Part shown: piece by piece, positions 1,389-13,253 of the stretch
How the letters are laid out: the number at the start of each line of letters is the position of its first letter
Numbering within the stretch: position 1 is the stretch's first letter
Source of the DNA: Betaproteobacteria bacterium
GTDB taxonomy: Bacteria; Pseudomonadota; Gammaproteobacteria; Burkholderiales; Burkholderiaceae_F
DNA: 64,000 nucleotides
NCBI GenBank assembly: GCA_016861185.1
Contig: BOKW01000004.1
Span: 248,001-312,000 of the forward strand
Direction of reading: 5' to 3'
The notes under the pieces: model-generated
Told to the model about the DNA's origin: nothing
The model's database searches: none
The model's input: the letters and a program-made list of their open reading frames with translations, nothing else
Position numbers and translations under genes: made by a program

Positions 1389-2159
1389 TCACCCCGCCCT
1401 GCGCGCCAGGAACGCGTGACCGTAGACCTCGAACTTGCGCGCCTTGGCCTCGCCGCGCGCGCCGCCGAAGGTGTCGTACGGGTGGCTGACGCGGACGTCG
1501 ACGAAACCGATTTCTTCCAGCATCGATCGCCAGGCTTCACACGGAAGACCACCGGCGATTCAGGCCGTCCATAGATCGACGTTGGCGATCGCCGACTCGG
1601 GCACCGGCTTGCCGTTGGCGATGTCGGCGAACTGCAGCCAGCCGCCGGGACGCAGCACGCGCCGGATTTCCTCGAACACGCGGCGCTTGTCGGCGCACAG
1701 GTTGATCACGCCGTTGCTGATCACCGCGTCGGCCCAGCCGCCGTCGACCGGCATGTCTTCGAGCAGGCCTGCGCGAAACTCGACGTTGGCGAGCCCCATC
1801 GCTCGCGCCGTGCTGCGCGCTTTGTCGACCATCTCCGGCAGCATGTCGATGCCGACCACGCGCCCTTGCGGTCCCACCTGGCGCGCGGCGACGAAGCAGT
1901 CGAAGCCGCCGCCCGAGCCGGCATCGACCACGCGTTCGCCCGGCGCAAGCGGCCGCAGCGCGAACGGGTTAGCCACGCCGGCAAACGATTCGACTGCGGC
2001 ATCGGGCATCGCATCGACGATGGCCGCGTCGTAACCGAGTCGTGCGGCCAGCCGGCGGCCGGTGTGGAAGTGGTATTCGCCGTCCGGCTTGACGGCGACT
2101 TCGCGGTATTTCTTCTTCACCTCCTCGCGCAGCGCGAGGGCATCGACTGCAGCGCTCAT
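1389..2159 (-). CDS. ArsM-like SAM-dependent methyltransferase, probable selenoprotein (Sec200)
   Basis: Class I SAM methyltransferase related to the arsenite methyltransferase (ArsM) group. Start ATG 2159 has AAGGAGG upstream. Residues 1-199 are typical: SAM-binding DAGSGGGFD near residue 79, GIDMLPEM, VISNGVINL, then DIANGKPVPES and DLWTA. The frame then meets TGA at 1560-1562 and stays open in the same frame for another 56 codons to TGA 1389-1391. The downstream part (IAGGLP, MLEEIGFVDVRV, DTFGGARGE, FEVYGHAFLARR) is the expected C-terminus. The TGA occupies the position of the conserved Cys in this family, and the paralogue at 2697-3932 has Cys (LWAECVVGA) at the aligned site. A SECIS-like hairpin starts at the next base. 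Read as selenocysteine the protein is 256 residues. The alternatives are a nonsense mutation or sequencing error; the hairpin and intact tail argue against them. Substrate is unproven; arsenic or another soft metalloid is plausible. Confidence 0.82.
1526..1559 (-). promoter_or_regulatory. bacterial SECIS-like hairpin directly after in-frame UGA
   Basis: On the minus strand, the 34 nt immediately after the TGA (1560-1562) fold into a two-part hairpin. The lower stem is AUCGCC (1559-1554) with GGCGAU (1531-1526). The upper stem is GGUCUUC (1550-1544) with GAAGCC (1538-1533), with one bulged U. The apical loop is CGUGU (1543-1539), containing the GU typical of bacterial SECIS loops. The loop begins 17 nt after the UGA, within the usual bacterial SECIS distance. 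It lies wholly in coding sequence, as bacterial SECIS elements do. Its role would be to recruit SelB-Sec-tRNA; selA, selB, selC and selD are not in this window. Confidence 0.75.
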
Positions 2160-2284: not shown

Positions 2285-2707
2285 ATGAGCCCGACTCTGC
2301 TGACCCGATTCGCCGCCGCAACGCTCGGCTGCGCCCTGCTTGCCGTCGCGCCCGCCGCACATGCTGCCTCGCCGCTCGACGGCAAGGTCTTTGTCGTCGA
2401 CCTCGGCCCGAAAGGCAAGCCGGCCAACGAGAAGGACGACGTGCTCACCTTCGGCGACGGCCGCTTCCACTCCAGGTTCTGCGACAAGTACGGCTTCGGT
2501 ACCGGCACCTACGCAGCGACGGCCGATGGCGGTGCGATCGTCTTCACGACGGAGACGGTGAGCGAAAGCGACGGCCGGCTCGTCTGGCGCGGCCGGATCG
2601 AAGGCGAAACGATCGAAGGCGAGATCGTTCACCACCGCAAGCCGGGCCTGTTCAACCGCAACCCGGCACCGCGCGAGTTGTGGTTCAAGGGCCGAATCAG
2701 GAAGTAG
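2285..2707 (+). CDS. small secreted protein of unknown function
   Basis: A 140-residue protein starting at ATG 2285 with a clear Sec signal peptide (hydrophobic LLTRFAAATLGCALLAVA then AAHAAS cleavage region). The mature part is about 110 residues with many charged residues and a beta-rich look (LTFGDGRFHSRFCDKYGFG, GAIVFTTETVSESDG, LVWRGRIEGETIEGEIVHH). No known family is recognised. It lies opposite the two flanking methyltransferase genes, and its 3' end overlaps the convergent fusion gene by 11 bp. No good ribosome site precedes 2285, so the start is uncertain, though the signal peptide fixes it within a few codons. It is presumed periplasmic. Confidence 0.65.
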   Translation: MSPTLLTRFAAATLGCALLAVAPAAHAASPLDGKVFVVDLGPKGKPANEKDDVLTFGDGRFHSRFCDKYGFGTGTYAATADGGAIVFTTETVSESDGRLVWRGRIEGETIEGEIVHHRKPGLFNRNPAPRELWFKGRIRK

Positions 2708-3932
2708 CGGCCCCTTCTCCCCCCGCCCCTCGCTTGCGCACAGAGACGGGCGTCTCTCTGGCGCGATGATCGAGCCAGATCGCGGTGCCGATCGCGACAA
2801 AGCCCAACGCCTCCACCGCAAAGCTGAAGTTCACGAGGTGCGCATACGACAGCACGGCGCCGCCGGCCAGCGCGGTCGCCAGCGGCGCATAGCGGCCGTG
2901 CTTGCGGACCCCGGCGGCTACGGCGATCACGGCCAGCGCGCCGAACGCGAGGATCACCGCGCTCACCGCGCCGCCTTTGACCGCGAGCGTGATGCCCGCC
3001 AGCGACAGCAGCGCGGTCGCGGCCACCGTGCCGTAACACGCGAGCATCGCCGCGCCGAGCGCAGCCGCGCCGGCCAGGCCGCGGCGCTGCACCGCGCGCA
3101 CCGCGCGACGCGGATCGGCGCGCCGCGCCCATTGCACCCACAGTGGCGGCGCGTGCGGTGCGCGCCGCATCGCGATTTCGATCGCGCGTGCGCCGAAGCG
3201 CCGCGCGACCTCGCGCGTGTGCTCGCTGCGGCTGTGGCTGAAGTAATCGAACTCGCGCAGCACGCTCACGTCTTCGAAGCCCGCGTCGCGAAACGCCGCG
3301 AGGTAGTCCTCGTCGATGGTGGCGCCGACCACGCACTCGGCCCACAGCTTGGGATCGGTCTTGCAGTCGAGCGTGACCGGGCGGCGGATCACGATGTCGG
3401 CGATCTGCACACGGCCGCCCGGCTTCAGCACCCGGAAGATCTCGGCGATCGCGCGCCGTTTGTCCGGCACGAGATTGAGCATGCCGTTGCTGGTGACGAC
3501 GTCGACCGACGCATCGGGCAGCGGCAGCGACTCGGCGTTGCCTTCCAGCACCTCGAGGTTCGGAACGGTGGCGGCGAGCGCCCGCAATCGGGCCACCATC
3601 GCCAGCGTCATGTCGAGCGCGTAGACCTTGCCGCGCGGCCCGACCAGCCTCGACGCGATCAGCGCATCGGTGCCCGAGCCGGCGCCGATGTCGAGCACGG
3701 TGTCGCCTTCCTTGATCGCTCCGGCGCGAAACGGATAGCCGACGCCGGCGAACGAGGCGAGTGTGGCCGCCGGCAGGCCTTCGAGCACTTCCTGCGGATA
3801 ACCGACCGCCAGGCACGCGTCGCGCCCCACCGGGAAGTGGTACGGAAGCTCCGGCGCGTTCGCCACGCCGGTGTACATGTCCTTCACCGCATCGAAGATG
3901 CGTTCGCGCGAAAAACCGAGGATGGCGACCAT
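2697..3932 (-). CDS. ArsM-like methyltransferase fused to a four-helix membrane domain
   Basis: A 411-residue fusion. Residues 1-265 are an ArsM-type SAM methyltransferase (YHFPVGRDAC, SAM motif DIGAGSGTD near 81, TSNGMLNLVPDKRR, FRVLKPGGRVQIADI, then LWAECVVGA with Cys200). Cys200 aligns with the TGA of the neighbouring methyltransferase. After a short basic linker, residues ~295-395 contain four hydrophobic segments resembling a MerC-type mercury-resistance or related small membrane domain, so the enzyme is probably anchored in the inner membrane. The tail is basic and Gly-rich. Its 5' leader holds a 7 x 7-bp tandem repeat. Methylation of a metalloid or thiol at the membrane is a reasonable guess; the MerC assignment is tentative. 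Confidence 0.8.
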   Translation of the reverse strand: MVAILGFSRERIFDAVKDMYTGVANAPELPYHFPVGRDACLAVGYPQEVLEGLPAATLASFAGVGYPFRAGAIKEGDTVLDIGAGSGTDALIASRLVGPRGKVYALDMTLAMVARLRALAATVPNLEVLEGNAESLPLPDASVDVVTSNGMLNLVPDKRRAIAEIFRVLKPGGRVQIADIVIRRPVTLDCKTDPKLWAECVVGATIDEDYLAAFRDAGFEDVSVLREFDYFSHSRSEHTREVARRFGARAIEIAMRRAPHAPPLWVQWARRADPRRAVRAVQRRGLAGAAALGAAMLACYGTVAATALLSLAGITLAVKGGAVSAVILAFGALAVIAVAAGVRKHGRYAPLATALAGGAVLSYAHLVNFSFAVEALGFVAIGTAIWLDHRARETPVSVRKRGAGGEGAATS

Positions 3933-3940
3933 GGCTCAGT

Positions 3941-3989
3941 CGGATTGCGGATTGCGGATTGCGGATTGCGGATTGCGGATTGCGGATTG
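3941..3989. repeat. 7-bp tandem repeat, seven copies (CGGATTG)n
   Basis: Seven perfect head-to-tail copies of CGGATTG, starting 9 bp upstream of the start codon of the methyltransferase-membrane fusion and ending 7 bp before the stop of the anti-sigma gene. A perfect heptamer array can change copy number by slippage. Here it would change leader length or ribosome-site spacing of the fusion gene rather than its frame. Confidence 0.9.
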
Positions 3990-3996
3990 CGCTCGT

Positions 3997-10167: not shown

Positions 10168-10572
10168 CTATTTCGTCGCGATCACGAGCGTGTTGTCGGC
10201 CGCCTGCGCCATGCCCCAGAAGTCGGCGGGCGAGCCGCGCTTTACGCCGGCGACCGACTCGCCCACGCCGCGCTCGTCGACGCACAGTCCGCAGTTGATC
10301 CATTGCAGTCTGGCGCCGCGCCGCTCGGCGAGCGCCTGCAGCCGTTCGATCCATACGCGCGGCAGCGGATGCGCCTCCTGCTCGGCATCGCGTCCGTGCG
10401 TCGCGTTGGCATGCGGCATCTGGCGCGCGAACGCGAGCCCCACAGCGCCCTCGTAGGCGAACACGTTGACGTGATGGCCGCGTTCCAGTGCCGCGTGCAG
10501 CAGGCGGAATGCCGTTGCGGTGCGCGCGCTTTCGAACGGCGCGTCCATCAGTGCGAAGGTCAAGGTTGCCAT
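10168..10572 (-). CDS. DsrE-like sulfur-relay protein with Cys pair
   Basis: A 134-residue DsrE-family protein: MATLTFALMDAPFESART, LEGHHVNVFAYEGAVG-type strand (ERGHHVNVFAYEGAVG), then RLQWINCGLCVDERGV. The CGLC pair lies where TusD/DsrE carries its active Cys and is a good candidate for persulfide binding. AGGAGG precedes ATG 10572. It sits between two other DsrE-like genes with 9-11-nt gaps, so the three are likely cotranslated and may assemble like DsrEFH or TusBCD heteromers. That assembly is inferred, not seen. Confidence 0.8.
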   Translation of the reverse strand: MATLTFALMDAPFESARTATAFRLLHAALERGHHVNVFAYEGAVGLAFARQMPHANATHGRDAEQEAHPLPRVWIERLQALAERRGARLQWINCGLCVDERGVGESVAGVKRGSPADFWGMAQAADNTLVIATK

Positions 10573-10581
10573 GGGGTCCTC

Positions 10582-10902
10582 CTAATGCCAGACGGTCGAC
10601 CAGCCGGCAGCCATGCGGTCGGTCACCAGTGCGATCGGCGCGGTCTTCACGCCCGACGCCAGTGCCTCGATGCCGCGCTCGCGCAGCGAGAATTCGTCGG
10701 CGTGCACCTCGACGCCGGCGGCGAGCGCCCGCTCGAGCCCGCCGGTCTTGCATTCCGCACGCGCCGGCAGCACGCCGTTCTGCACGAGGAAGAGCGCGAC
10801 CTCGTGGCCGGCGCGTTTCAGTCCCACCGCCAGTTCGCACCAGCGGTCCGCGTCGACCGACTCGAACGGGTCGCGCGATTCAATCAGCAGATACTTGTTC
10901 AT
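10582..10902 (-). CDS. DsrE/DsrH-like small protein
   Basis: A 106-residue DsrE-fold protein (MNKYLLIESRDPFESVDADRW, AGHEVALFLVQNGVLPARA, GVEVHADEFSLRERGI). Two Cys are present (RWCELA, AECKTG), the second following the strand-loop LVQNGVLPAR where the functional Cys of this family often lies. A purine-rich AAAGGGA site precedes ATG 10902. First of the three DsrE-like genes, 40 nt after the sulfide dehydrogenase gene. Likely to act in persulfide transfer with its two neighbours. Confidence 0.78.
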   Translation of the reverse strand: MNKYLLIESRDPFESVDADRWCELAVGLKRAGHEVALFLVQNGVLPARAECKTGGLERALAAGVEVHADEFSLRERGIEALASGVKTAPIALVTDRMAAGWSTVWH

Positions 10903-10942
10903 ACGTTCCCTTTCATCGAGCAAGAATCCCGCACACCGGCCG

Positions 10943-12232
10943 TCACGCCAGCATGTCGCTCCAGATCGTCTGCGCCCAACCCCACGCGAAGCCGGCCTCC
11001 TGCGCCCAGCTCGCGCGGTTGGCGGAAGACACGCCGCCCGCGCCGGCCACCGGCTCGAGCGTCTTCCTCTCCACCACCCAGCGATGCACGCTGGCGACGT
11101 GCACCGCGTGTTTGTCGTCGACGAAGCTGTAGCAGGTGTTGGTCATCGTCGGCGGCATGGGCAGCCGGCCGGCGAACAGATCGACGATCGCCGCGGCCGC
11201 CGCCTTGCCGTGCTGGTTGGCCATGTGGCCGGACTTCGGCATGCCCGGCGCGGACAGCGTGGCGTCGCCCAGCACGTGCACCTGCTTCACCTTGATCGAC
11301 TCCAGCGTCGTCCAGTCCACCTCGCACCAGCGGTCGTTGGCGGTGACCAGCCCCGCGTCGCGGGCGATGCGCGCGGCGCGCATCGGCGCAATGAGGTTCA
11401 GCACGTCGCCGCGGACCCGTTCGCCCAGATCAAGCACGAACGCGCGCCCTTGGACATCGACCTCGGCGACCGCGGCGTTCGGCCGATATTCGACGAGCGT
11501 CGGGTAGTCCTCCTTCCACACGCGTGTGAATAGAGGCCCCTTGGAGGTCACCGCGGCATTGGCGTCGAGCAAGATGAGCTTGCTCCTGGGTTTCTTCGTC
11601 TTCAGGTAGTGCGCGATCTGGCAGGCACGCTCGTACGGTCCCGGCGGGCAGCGATACGGTGCAGCCGGCACGCTGATCAGCACCACGCCGCCGTCGGGCA
11701 TCGCTTCGAGCTGGCGCCTGAGCAGCGCCGTTTGCGCACCGGCTTTCCACGCGTGCGGAATCGCCTCGGCCGCCGCTTCGCTCATGCCGCGTACGCGGTC
11801 GAACATCAACTCGATGCCGGGAGAAACGACCAGCCGGTCATAGGCGAGTGCGCCGCCGGTCGCCAGCCGTACCCGGCGGCGTTCGCCGTCGATCGCGGCG
11901 ACCGTGTCGTGCACGACGTTCACGCCGCGCTTGCGCAGGCCGTCGTAGCCGAGGGTGATGTCGGCGAGCGACTTCGAGCCGGCGAGCACGAGGTTGGAGA
12001 GTGGGCAGGAGACGAACTGGCGGTTCGCCTCGATGAGCGTGACGTCGATCGCGCCTGCCGACCACAGCCGCAGGTACTTCGCCGCCGTCGCGCCGCCGAA
12101 GCCGCCGCCGATCACCACCACCTTGGCGGCCGATTCTTTCGGCGCCGACGCGCAGGCCGCCAGCGCCGTCGCCACCGCGCTCGCGGCGCCGAGCTTCAGC
12201 ACGTCGCGACGCGTGAACTCCCTGTATGCCAT
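10943..12232 (-). CDS. fccB: flavocytochrome c sulfide dehydrogenase, flavoprotein subunit
   Basis: A 429-residue periplasmic flavoprotein that oxidises sulfide to sulfur or polysulfide and passes electrons to its cytochrome partner. The N-terminus has a twin-arginine-like signal (FTRRDVLKLG) and LAACAS. The FAD-binding VVIGGGFGGATAAKYL lies at about 39-54. Three functional cysteines of the family are all visible: Cys76 in FVSCPLSN (site of covalent FAD in characterised enzymes), and Cys195 (PYRCPPGPYERA) with Cys367 (TNTCYSF), the redox disulfide pair. The C-terminal AWGWAQTIWSDML is typical. The cytochrome gene lies 11 nt upstream. Assignment between FccB and SoxF depends only on nomenclature. 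Confidence 0.92.
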   Translation of the reverse strand: MAYREFTRRDVLKLGAASAVATALAACASAPKESAAKVVVIGGGFGGATAAKYLRLWSAGAIDVTLIEANRQFVSCPLSNLVLAGSKSLADITLGYDGLRKRGVNVVHDTVAAIDGERRRVRLATGGALAYDRLVVSPGIELMFDRVRGMSEAAAEAIPHAWKAGAQTALLRRQLEAMPDGGVVLISVPAAPYRCPPGPYERACQIAHYLKTKKPRSKLILLDANAAVTSKGPLFTRVWKEDYPTLVEYRPNAAVAEVDVQGRAFVLDLGERVRGDVLNLIAPMRAARIARDAGLVTANDRWCEVDWTTLESIKVKQVHVLGDATLSAPGMPKSGHMANQHGKAAAAAIVDLFAGRLPMPPTMTNTCYSFVDDKHAVHVASVHRWVVERKTLEPVAGAGGVSSANRASWAQEAGFAWGWAQTIWSDMLA

Positions 12233-12243
12233 GTCCGTTCTCC

Positions 12244-12543
12244 TCACTTCGGCTGCCGCGCGAAGAACTCGGCGAGCAGCGCGATCTCGTCGTCGCTGTA
12301 ACCCTTGGCGATCTGGTGCATCACCGTGGCCGGCCGCCTGCCGTCGCGAAACTGGCGCATCTGCTCGACGAAGTAGGCCGGCGCCAGACCGGCGAGGCTG
12401 GGCATCGCGCCGACCGCGCGGCCGGCGGTGCCGTGGCAGTTGGCGCAGCTGCCGGCGAGCGTGCGCACCTGCGGCGGGTCTTGCGCGGCGTGCGCGAGTG
12501 CCGGCAGGGCGGCGAGCGCGGCGGCGAGCAATCGACGTTTCAT
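12244..12543 (-). CDS. fccA: cytochrome c subunit of sulfide dehydrogenase
   Basis: A 99-residue monoheme class I cytochrome c with a signal peptide (MKRRLLAAALAALPALAHAA) and one CANCH heme motif. The axial Met is likely in the MPSLAG segment or the later MRQFRDGRRPATVMHQIAKG. Its position directly before the flavoprotein gene identifies it as the electron acceptor subunit; it is single-domain rather than the diheme form of Allochromatium. Its ATG overlaps the stop of the upstream persulfide dioxygenase-like gene by 4 bp (ATGA), so the two are translationally coupled. Confidence 0.9.
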   Translation of the reverse strand: MKRRLLAAALAALPALAHAAQDPPQVRTLAGSCANCHGTAGRAVGAMPSLAGLAPAYFVEQMRQFRDGRRPATVMHQIAKGYSDDEIALLAEFFARQPK

Positions 12544-13253
12544 CGTTGACCTCCAACGGTGGGTTGCATTGGGCGTGGGAATCGGCCGAGGTTGGCTGGC
12601 AGCGCTTCGTCCATCAGCTTCGGCTTCGGCAGCTTCAGCGCATCCATCAGCGCGACGTATTCGGCGCGCGAGCGCACCTGCAGCCGCGGGTTCAGGCGCC
12701 GCTCTTCGCCGATCGTGCTGAACGTGCGGCCGCGGTAGTCGTGCGCCGGATAAACGCGTGTGGCCTCCGGCAGCCGCAGCAGCCGGCCGAAGAGCGATTC
12801 GTACTGGGCGGCGGCGTCACCGCCCGGCAGATCGGTGCGGCCGGTGCCGCCGATCAGCAGCGTGTCACCGGTGAACAGGAGGTCGTTGAGCAGCAGGCAC
12901 ATCGAGTCCGGCGTGTGGCCCGGCGTGTGCAGCACGCGCAGCGACAGGCCATCGAGCGTGATCGCCTCGCCGTCGGCCAGGCGCAGGGCCACGATTTCGC
13001 ACGCGGTGCGCTCGCTCATCGCCGTCGTGCAACCCGTGCGGTCGGCCACCGCGCCGAGCCCGGAAAAGCGATCGGCATGCAAATGCGTGTCGACCGCCCT
13101 GACCAGCCGCAGCCCGAACTCGTCGAGCAGCGACACGTACCGATCGATGTCGTCGAGCACAGGGTCGACCAGCACCGCCTCGCCGCCGCGACCGCTTGCG
13201 AGCAGATACGTATAGCTGCACGACGCCGTGTGAAAGACTTGGCGCAGGATCAT
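12540..13253 (-). CDS. metallo-beta-lactamase-fold persulfide dioxygenase-like enzyme
   Basis: A 237-residue MBL-fold protein resembling ETHE1/Blh persulfide dioxygenases, which oxidise glutathione persulfide to sulfite. The three ligands expected for the mononuclear iron are present: His57 (in THLHAD), His113 (LHTPGHTPDS) and Asp130 (FTGD); DYRGR and TGRTDLPGGD loops fit the family. The usual MBL HxHxDH motif reads HxHxDR here (Arg62), so the second metal site of ordinary hydrolases is lost, which agrees with a one-metal enzyme. First gene of the FccAB-DsrE operon, where it would dispose of persulfide from sulfide oxidation. Confidence 0.83.
   Translation of the reverse strand: MILRQVFHTASCSYTYLLASGRGGEAVLVDPVLDDIDRYVSLLDEFGLRLVRAVDTHLHADRFSGLGAVADRTGCTTAMSERTACEIVALRLADGEAITLDGLSLRVLHTPGHTPDSMCLLLNDLLFTGDTLLIGGTGRTDLPGGDAAAQYESLFGRLLRLPEATRVYPAHDYRGRTFSTIGEERRLNPRLQVRSRAEYVALMDALKLPKPKLMDEALPANLGRFPRPMQPTVGGQR

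Follow-up and report, generated by a model that had tools for sequence, protein, structure and literature searches.

A candidate ArsM-like selenoprotein methyltransferase with an in-frame UGA and relatives in UGA, UAG and cysteine versions

The DNA analysed here (the window) is a stretch of 64,000 nucleotides from a Betaproteobacteria bacterium (contig BOKW01000004.1, positions 248,001 to 312,000), and our subject is one of its genes, a minus-strand frame near the start of the stretch that is interrupted by a single TGA. We propose, with a probability of about 0.87, that this gene encodes an ArsM-fold methyltransferase dependent on S-adenosylmethionine (SAM), in which the UGA is decoded as selenocysteine (Sec) via a hairpin resembling a selenocysteine insertion sequence (SECIS) and the resulting selenolate acts on a soft substrate. 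Judged from sequence, codon 200 very probably specifies Sec, and the assignment as a methyltransferase is about equally probable. The features concerned are as follows.

1389-2159, minus strand: predicted selenoprotein methyltransferase gene of 256 residues, class I SAM-dependent and ArsM-like, with one UGA read through
1560-1562, minus strand: in-frame TGA at codon 200, the predicted Sec codon, on the basis of the conserved stop and the codon/anticodon match
1392-1559, minus strand: codons 201-256 after the UGA, the predicted last helices (207-217 and 237-242) and strands (219-224 and 245-254) of the methyltransferase fold
1529-1556, minus strand: SECIS-like hairpin directly after the UGA, with apical loop CGUGU at 1539-1543 and a bulged U on the 5' side of the upper stem, on the basis of folds, synonymous-codon conservation and pairing

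The frame runs from an ATG at 2159 to its own TGA terminator at 1389-1391 with one internal TGA, and the 56 codons between that TGA and the terminator, correctly placed by the original prediction, encode a C terminus that aligns with full-length homologues up to their end. Of 23 protein matches aligned (from 120 listed and 8,000 scored), 11 are database stubs of 199-207 residues that end at the residue before the site, the window's own entry (P0003) among them, and 10 are full-length with Cys at the site. A search of genome contigs returned 16 loci, and all 14 that were read at the site carry a stop at this exact codon (11 TGA and 3 TAG), L023 and L024 being weak 32% partial matches that fall short of it. 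Since the C terminus aligns to the end and all 14 contig loci share the stop, the in-frame TGA is not a chance occurrence. In whole-genome searches (cut-off E 1e-60), matches were obtained for 3 of the 274 genomes from the class to which the window belongs, the window genome being one of them, for 7 of 112 genomes of the Blastococcus saxobsidens family and for 22 of 296 from the class represented by an acidimicrobiial genome. The distribution is therefore sparse, yet it reaches across two phyla, Pseudomonadota and Actinomycetota. After deduplication, and with the window included, the set holds 37 stop loci in 35 genomes (31 TGA and 6 TAG) together with eight loci that have a Cys codon at the site (L069, L082, L089, L090, L091, L092, L096 and L099). 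TAG forms occur in Blastococcus, Modestobacter and three further genomes of the same family search. Two genomes carry both versions, with one stop-form and one Cys-form copy of the methyltransferase each (G613, stop-form L101 and Cys-form L082; G604, L088 and L099).

This distribution bears on two alternatives, both very improbable. In the first, the TGA is a disabling mutation or a sequencing error and the gene is dead; L076 shifts frame before the site, L138 is matched in two frames, and L086, a TGA form that lacks the CGTG motif, lies in a genome (G427) with no tRNA-Sec detected and may be degenerating because Sec coding was lost there. However, 37 loci of Pseudomonadota and Actinomycetota have a stop at this codon, the protein after it is conserved and the TAG forms match a tRNA-Sec with anticodon CUA; such conservation of the stop goes beyond anything that sequencing error would produce. 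In the second, the TGA is a genuine terminator and the gene makes a 199-residue protein, as the entries that end there, the window's own included, might suggest. Against this, the downstream residues are conserved, they are predicted to supply the final strands of the fold, and the Cys homologues have them in one uninterrupted chain.

The original prediction had read the TGA as a Sec codon, and that reading holds: the stop is conserved, homologues have Cys or a stop at the site except for two with Trp, and the Sec machinery is present, with selA, selB, selC and selD all found in the window genome above curated cut-offs. Its tRNA-Sec (74.8 bits, anticodon UCA) lies directly after selA and selB, with selD elsewhere, and upstream of selA is an FdhA whose single UGA falls in what is commonly the Sec motif of formate dehydrogenases. 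Among the relatives, the anticodon is UCA in all 23 TGA genomes with a detected tRNA-Sec, including one (G355) that the family search behind the TAG forms also returned, and a CUA-anticodon tRNA-Sec occurs in all six TAG genomes, where ARAGORN labels it tRNA-Pyl and Rfam scores it as tRNA-Sec at 65-67 bits. A tRNA-Sec was detected in 29 of 35 stop-form genomes compared with 1 of 6 Cys-only genomes (Fisher P = 0.003, with a Cys-only set that is small and related), Rfam matches that ARAGORN names tRNA-Ser (G411 and G613) having been set aside. Still less probable than the two alternatives above is that tryptophan, or whatever general read-through inserts, takes the place of Sec at the stop. The two homologues listed with Trp (P0002 and P0012) speak for it, although P0002 may, at a guess, come from a code-4 gene call; against it, the usual alternative residue is Cys, every TAG form sits in a genome with a CUA tRNA-Sec, the gene itself terminates with TGA, and the genome has the UGA-containing FdhA near selA and selB. 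One of the six TAG genomes, from the Blastococcus family search (G343, loci L102 and L123), has two tRNA-Sec genes, with anticodons UCA (81.8 bits) and CUA (65.3 bits), which possibly reflects a mixed Sec code or a mixed assembly. UAG-coded Sec is known in Geodermatophilaceae for formate dehydrogenase, a UGSC-motif protein and AhpC, as listed in PMC5330540.

The CGUGU loop of the window lies 20-24 bases from the U of the UGA, so that CGUG stands at SECIS distance, and the upper stem has a bulged U, which is a feature of the SECIS of Escherichia coli fdhF. Support for a SECIS comes from codon-level conservation within each subtype, not from folding energy. Codon usage was compared in the 32 of 37 stop loci whose site is followed by LP(C/R). 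Arg-type loci write Pro-Arg as CCC-CGT in 18 of 19 cases, though CGT makes up 10% of Arg codons in these genes, and all 13 Cys-type loci use CCG for Pro; the CGUG that both encodings produce is shifted by two bases between them. In each subtype, synonymous identity is highest, among all windows of the gene, at codons +4 to +12 (0.98 versus 0.60 and 0.72 versus 0.49), which is not the case in seven Cys-codon genes; this test also left out L021, L022, L095 and L098 as partial or frameshifted. Seven upper-stem pairs form in all 19 Arg-type loci, but without variation, and therefore say nothing for pairing as such; in the Cys-type, pairs 18-26 and 14-30 vary but remain paired, and pair 15-29 is open in the three loci that have the bulged U. 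Pairing in the four divergent loci tested, L086, L097, L100 and L101, departs from the positions seen in the main types, and the last three have strong hairpins of another sequence. Folding energy was rejected as proof of a SECIS, since the hairpin is no better than dinucleotide shuffles (z from -1.5 to +0.3 for the window) or synonymous shuffles, against which z fell below -1 in 11 of 36 stop loci and also in 2 of 7 Cys loci. The hairpin survey skipped the duplicates L070, L071, L075 and L085, and its pattern missed the Cys loci L090-L092 and L099, which were read separately; the synonymous-shuffle test, covering 36 stop and 7 Cys loci, also skipped L076.

The predicted model has an ArsM-like fold and its three best structural matches are ArsM chains. 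Codon 200 aligns with the third As(III)-binding cysteine of ArsM, these cysteines being, as we take it, 72, 174 and 224 in CmArsM. No other position has Sec or Cys throughout the 39 members compared: the equivalent of Cys174 is Gly150 in 39 of 39, that of Cys72 is position 62 (Val in 36, Met in 2, Ile in 1), and the next most frequent Cys column, 155, has Cys in 28 of 39. Arsenite methylation is thus not assured, because the subfamily keeps one of the three arsenic-binding cysteine positions. A true arsenite or methylarsenite methyltransferase, with Sec replacing the catalytic Cys as in listed Sec-ArsM proteins, would agree with the structural matches, with best NCBIfam matches that are ArsM families, and with a Reyranella locus (L011) beside genes of arsenic type. 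We nevertheless consider it unlikely because the Cys174 and Cys72 equivalents are not Cys in any of the 39 members, the window protein scores 214.8 bits, below the cut-off of 263 for the arsenite methyltransferase family NF008823, and the recurring neighbours are genes of sulfur type. Of the ArsM-like identity originally predicted, the fold agrees with the model and the implied arsenic chemistry is not supported, and the sequence describes an ArsM-like selenoprotein candidate rather than an established arsenite methyltransferase.

Within 4.5 kb of the 34 stop loci surveyed, a regulator combining an ArsR-type helix-turn-helix (HTH) and a rhodanese domain occurs at 14, an MBL-fold metallo-hydrolase that looks persulfide-dioxygenase-like by eye at 11 (fused to rhodanese in the actinobacterial example tested), a major facilitator superfamily (MFS) transporter at 11 and a DsrE protein at 8. 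At 54 control loci, placed at tRNA genes of family-carrying genomes, the counts were 1, 0, 1 and 0 for regulator, MBL, MFS and DsrE, a contrast that is overstated roughly by the length ratio because control loci span only ~3 kb. Three of the eight Cys loci share the ArsR-rhodanese regulator. For other sulfane-sulfur-responsive ArsR-type regulators, the apparent targets are pdo and rhodanese genes (PMC12423496). At L011, the neighbours are Acr3-, ArsJ-, GAPDH- and ArsR/ArsC-like as named by eye; by Pfam, one is an MFS protein and another combines HTH and LMW-phosphatase domains. For the window gene itself a sulfur-operon reading was rejected: no ArsR-rhodanese match was found within the 64-kb window, and the only similar MBL gene there lies at 12.5-13.3 kb (34% to the MBL protein of L010). 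A group at 10168-13253 on the minus strand looks, by eye, like genes for sulfide oxidation and lies 8-11 kb from the window gene; it includes a DsrE-like protein, a flavoprotein resembling flavocytochrome c sulfide dehydrogenase and a persulfide-dioxygenase-like MBL protein.

In the mechanism that we envisage, SelB would insert Sec at the UGA, or at UAG in some actinobacteria, at the SECIS-like hairpin directly after the codon, and the selenolate would serve to bind a soft substrate beside SAM, or to attack it. That substrate may be sulfane sulfur or a thiol-bound metalloid species, which would be methylated, a suggestion made because rhodanese, DsrE and persulfide-dioxygenase-like genes neighbour many relatives; a substrate on the sulfur side is put forward tentatively, at somewhat less than even odds. 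The methylated product would probably be exported by the neighbouring MFS pump, where present. An elaborate version, which we regard as improbable, is that one Sec site switched from UGA to UAG along with its tRNA and that the lone selenolate carries sulfane sulfur as a perselenide, loaded by rhodanese or DsrE partners and methylated by SAM, making the protein a sulfane-sulfur methyltransferase whose ancestor was an arsenic enzyme and whose arsenic ligands have gone.

Several observations count against the proposed selenoprotein. No tRNA-Sec was detected in 6 of the 35 stop-form genomes (G009, G010, G024, G427, G613 and G671), at least two of which are metagenome-assembled genomes, and tRNA-Sec presence is weak as proof alone because one sampled class has it widely in any case (191 of 296 genomes, and 14 of 17 of its stop-form genomes). 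Trp occupies the site in 2 of the 23 aligned protein entries (P0002 and P0012), at protein level only. In a gene tree of 56 rows, in which many deep forks are unsettled, the TAG forms are one supported group, together with P0012, so the TAG/CUA pairing may be one event. Hairpin energy compared with synonymous shuffles has a mean z of -0.34 over the 36 stop loci and +0.79 for the window; the CGUG loop is in the best predicted hairpin of 18 of 37 stop loci, the window included, and the others fold better in another register; pooling both subtypes leaves the post-stop synonymous peak only fourth of 204 windows; and Rfam returned no SECIS match, its one match being a chance-level hit to an unrelated snoRNA family. 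Near residue 200 the structural model has low confidence (block means 62-75). Finally, 15 of 34 stop loci, some of them cut short, have none of the ArsR-rhodanese, MBL, MFS and DsrE genes nearby, and neither does the window gene.

The neighbouring paralogue invoked in the original prediction does have Cys at its residue 200, as claimed there.

2697-3932, minus strand: Cys-containing ArsM-like paralogue of 411 residues, with LWAEC at residue 200

It also has Gly at the Cys174 position, and its C-terminal stretch is weakly MerC-like (25.8 bits, below the Pfam cut-off of 27.6). Just upstream of its start, at about 3943-3990, a short tandem repeat of the 7-base unit CGGATTG was seen by eye, as were three consecutive Hsp20-like open frames at 1-1260 on the plus strand.

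Sec in ArsM homologues is already known, being listed in PMC13188914 (citing Fomenko 2007) and in a 2008 GOS survey (PMC2398784), and the present protein is not new in kind. What is new is a single-domain subfamily that falls below the NCBI ArsM cut-off, lacks the partner ligands and exists in UGA, UAG and Cys versions, and the presence of ArsR-rhodanese, persulfide-dioxygenase-like, DsrE and MFS genes near many relatives, though not near the window gene. Our searches of open-licence literature turned up no report of a UAG-encoded methyltransferase or of this ArsR-rhodanese/methyltransferase cluster. Most selenoproteins of known function are oxidoreductases (PMC2398784). A methyltransferase that has one Sec, and in which no further cysteine is invariant, would allow a clean look at what selenium contributes to methyl transfer, and the UGA, UAG and Cys versions of one family offer a natural three-way comparison. 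Protein databases hold some of these enzymes as truncated stubs, and the TAG form would lengthen the short list of UAG-encoded selenoproteins.

Among known systems, Sec-ArsM (PRK11873 / NF008823) is likewise an ArsM-like methyltransferase with a UxxG motif, but the window protein scores below its cut-off; it is also without equivalents of ArsM Cys72 and Cys174. ArsM_AhpD_UU (NF041537), ArsM_DUF2284_UU (NF041536) and MTase_UXPK_star (NF047649), listed with the UxxG motif and two or three Sec in PMC13188914, are among the four best NCBIfam matches of the window protein; their profiles are longer (345, 459 and 283 positions), whereas the window protein has 256 residues and one Sec codon and lies far below their cut-offs. 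With NF041537 it reaches 218.1 bits against a cut-off of 510, matching only profile positions 8-227 of 345 and leaving the second (AhpD) domain uncovered. Of the ArsM/AS3MT structures 5evj, 4fr0, 6cx6 and 8xt7, the first three are the best structural matches of the model; identity in the structural alignment is 27-31%, and the window protein keeps one of the three As-binding Cys positions. As with the UAG selenoproteins of Geodermatophilaceae, the TAG forms described here pair with a CUA tRNA-Sec; no methyltransferase is among those listed in PMC5330540, and the TAG forms would add one.
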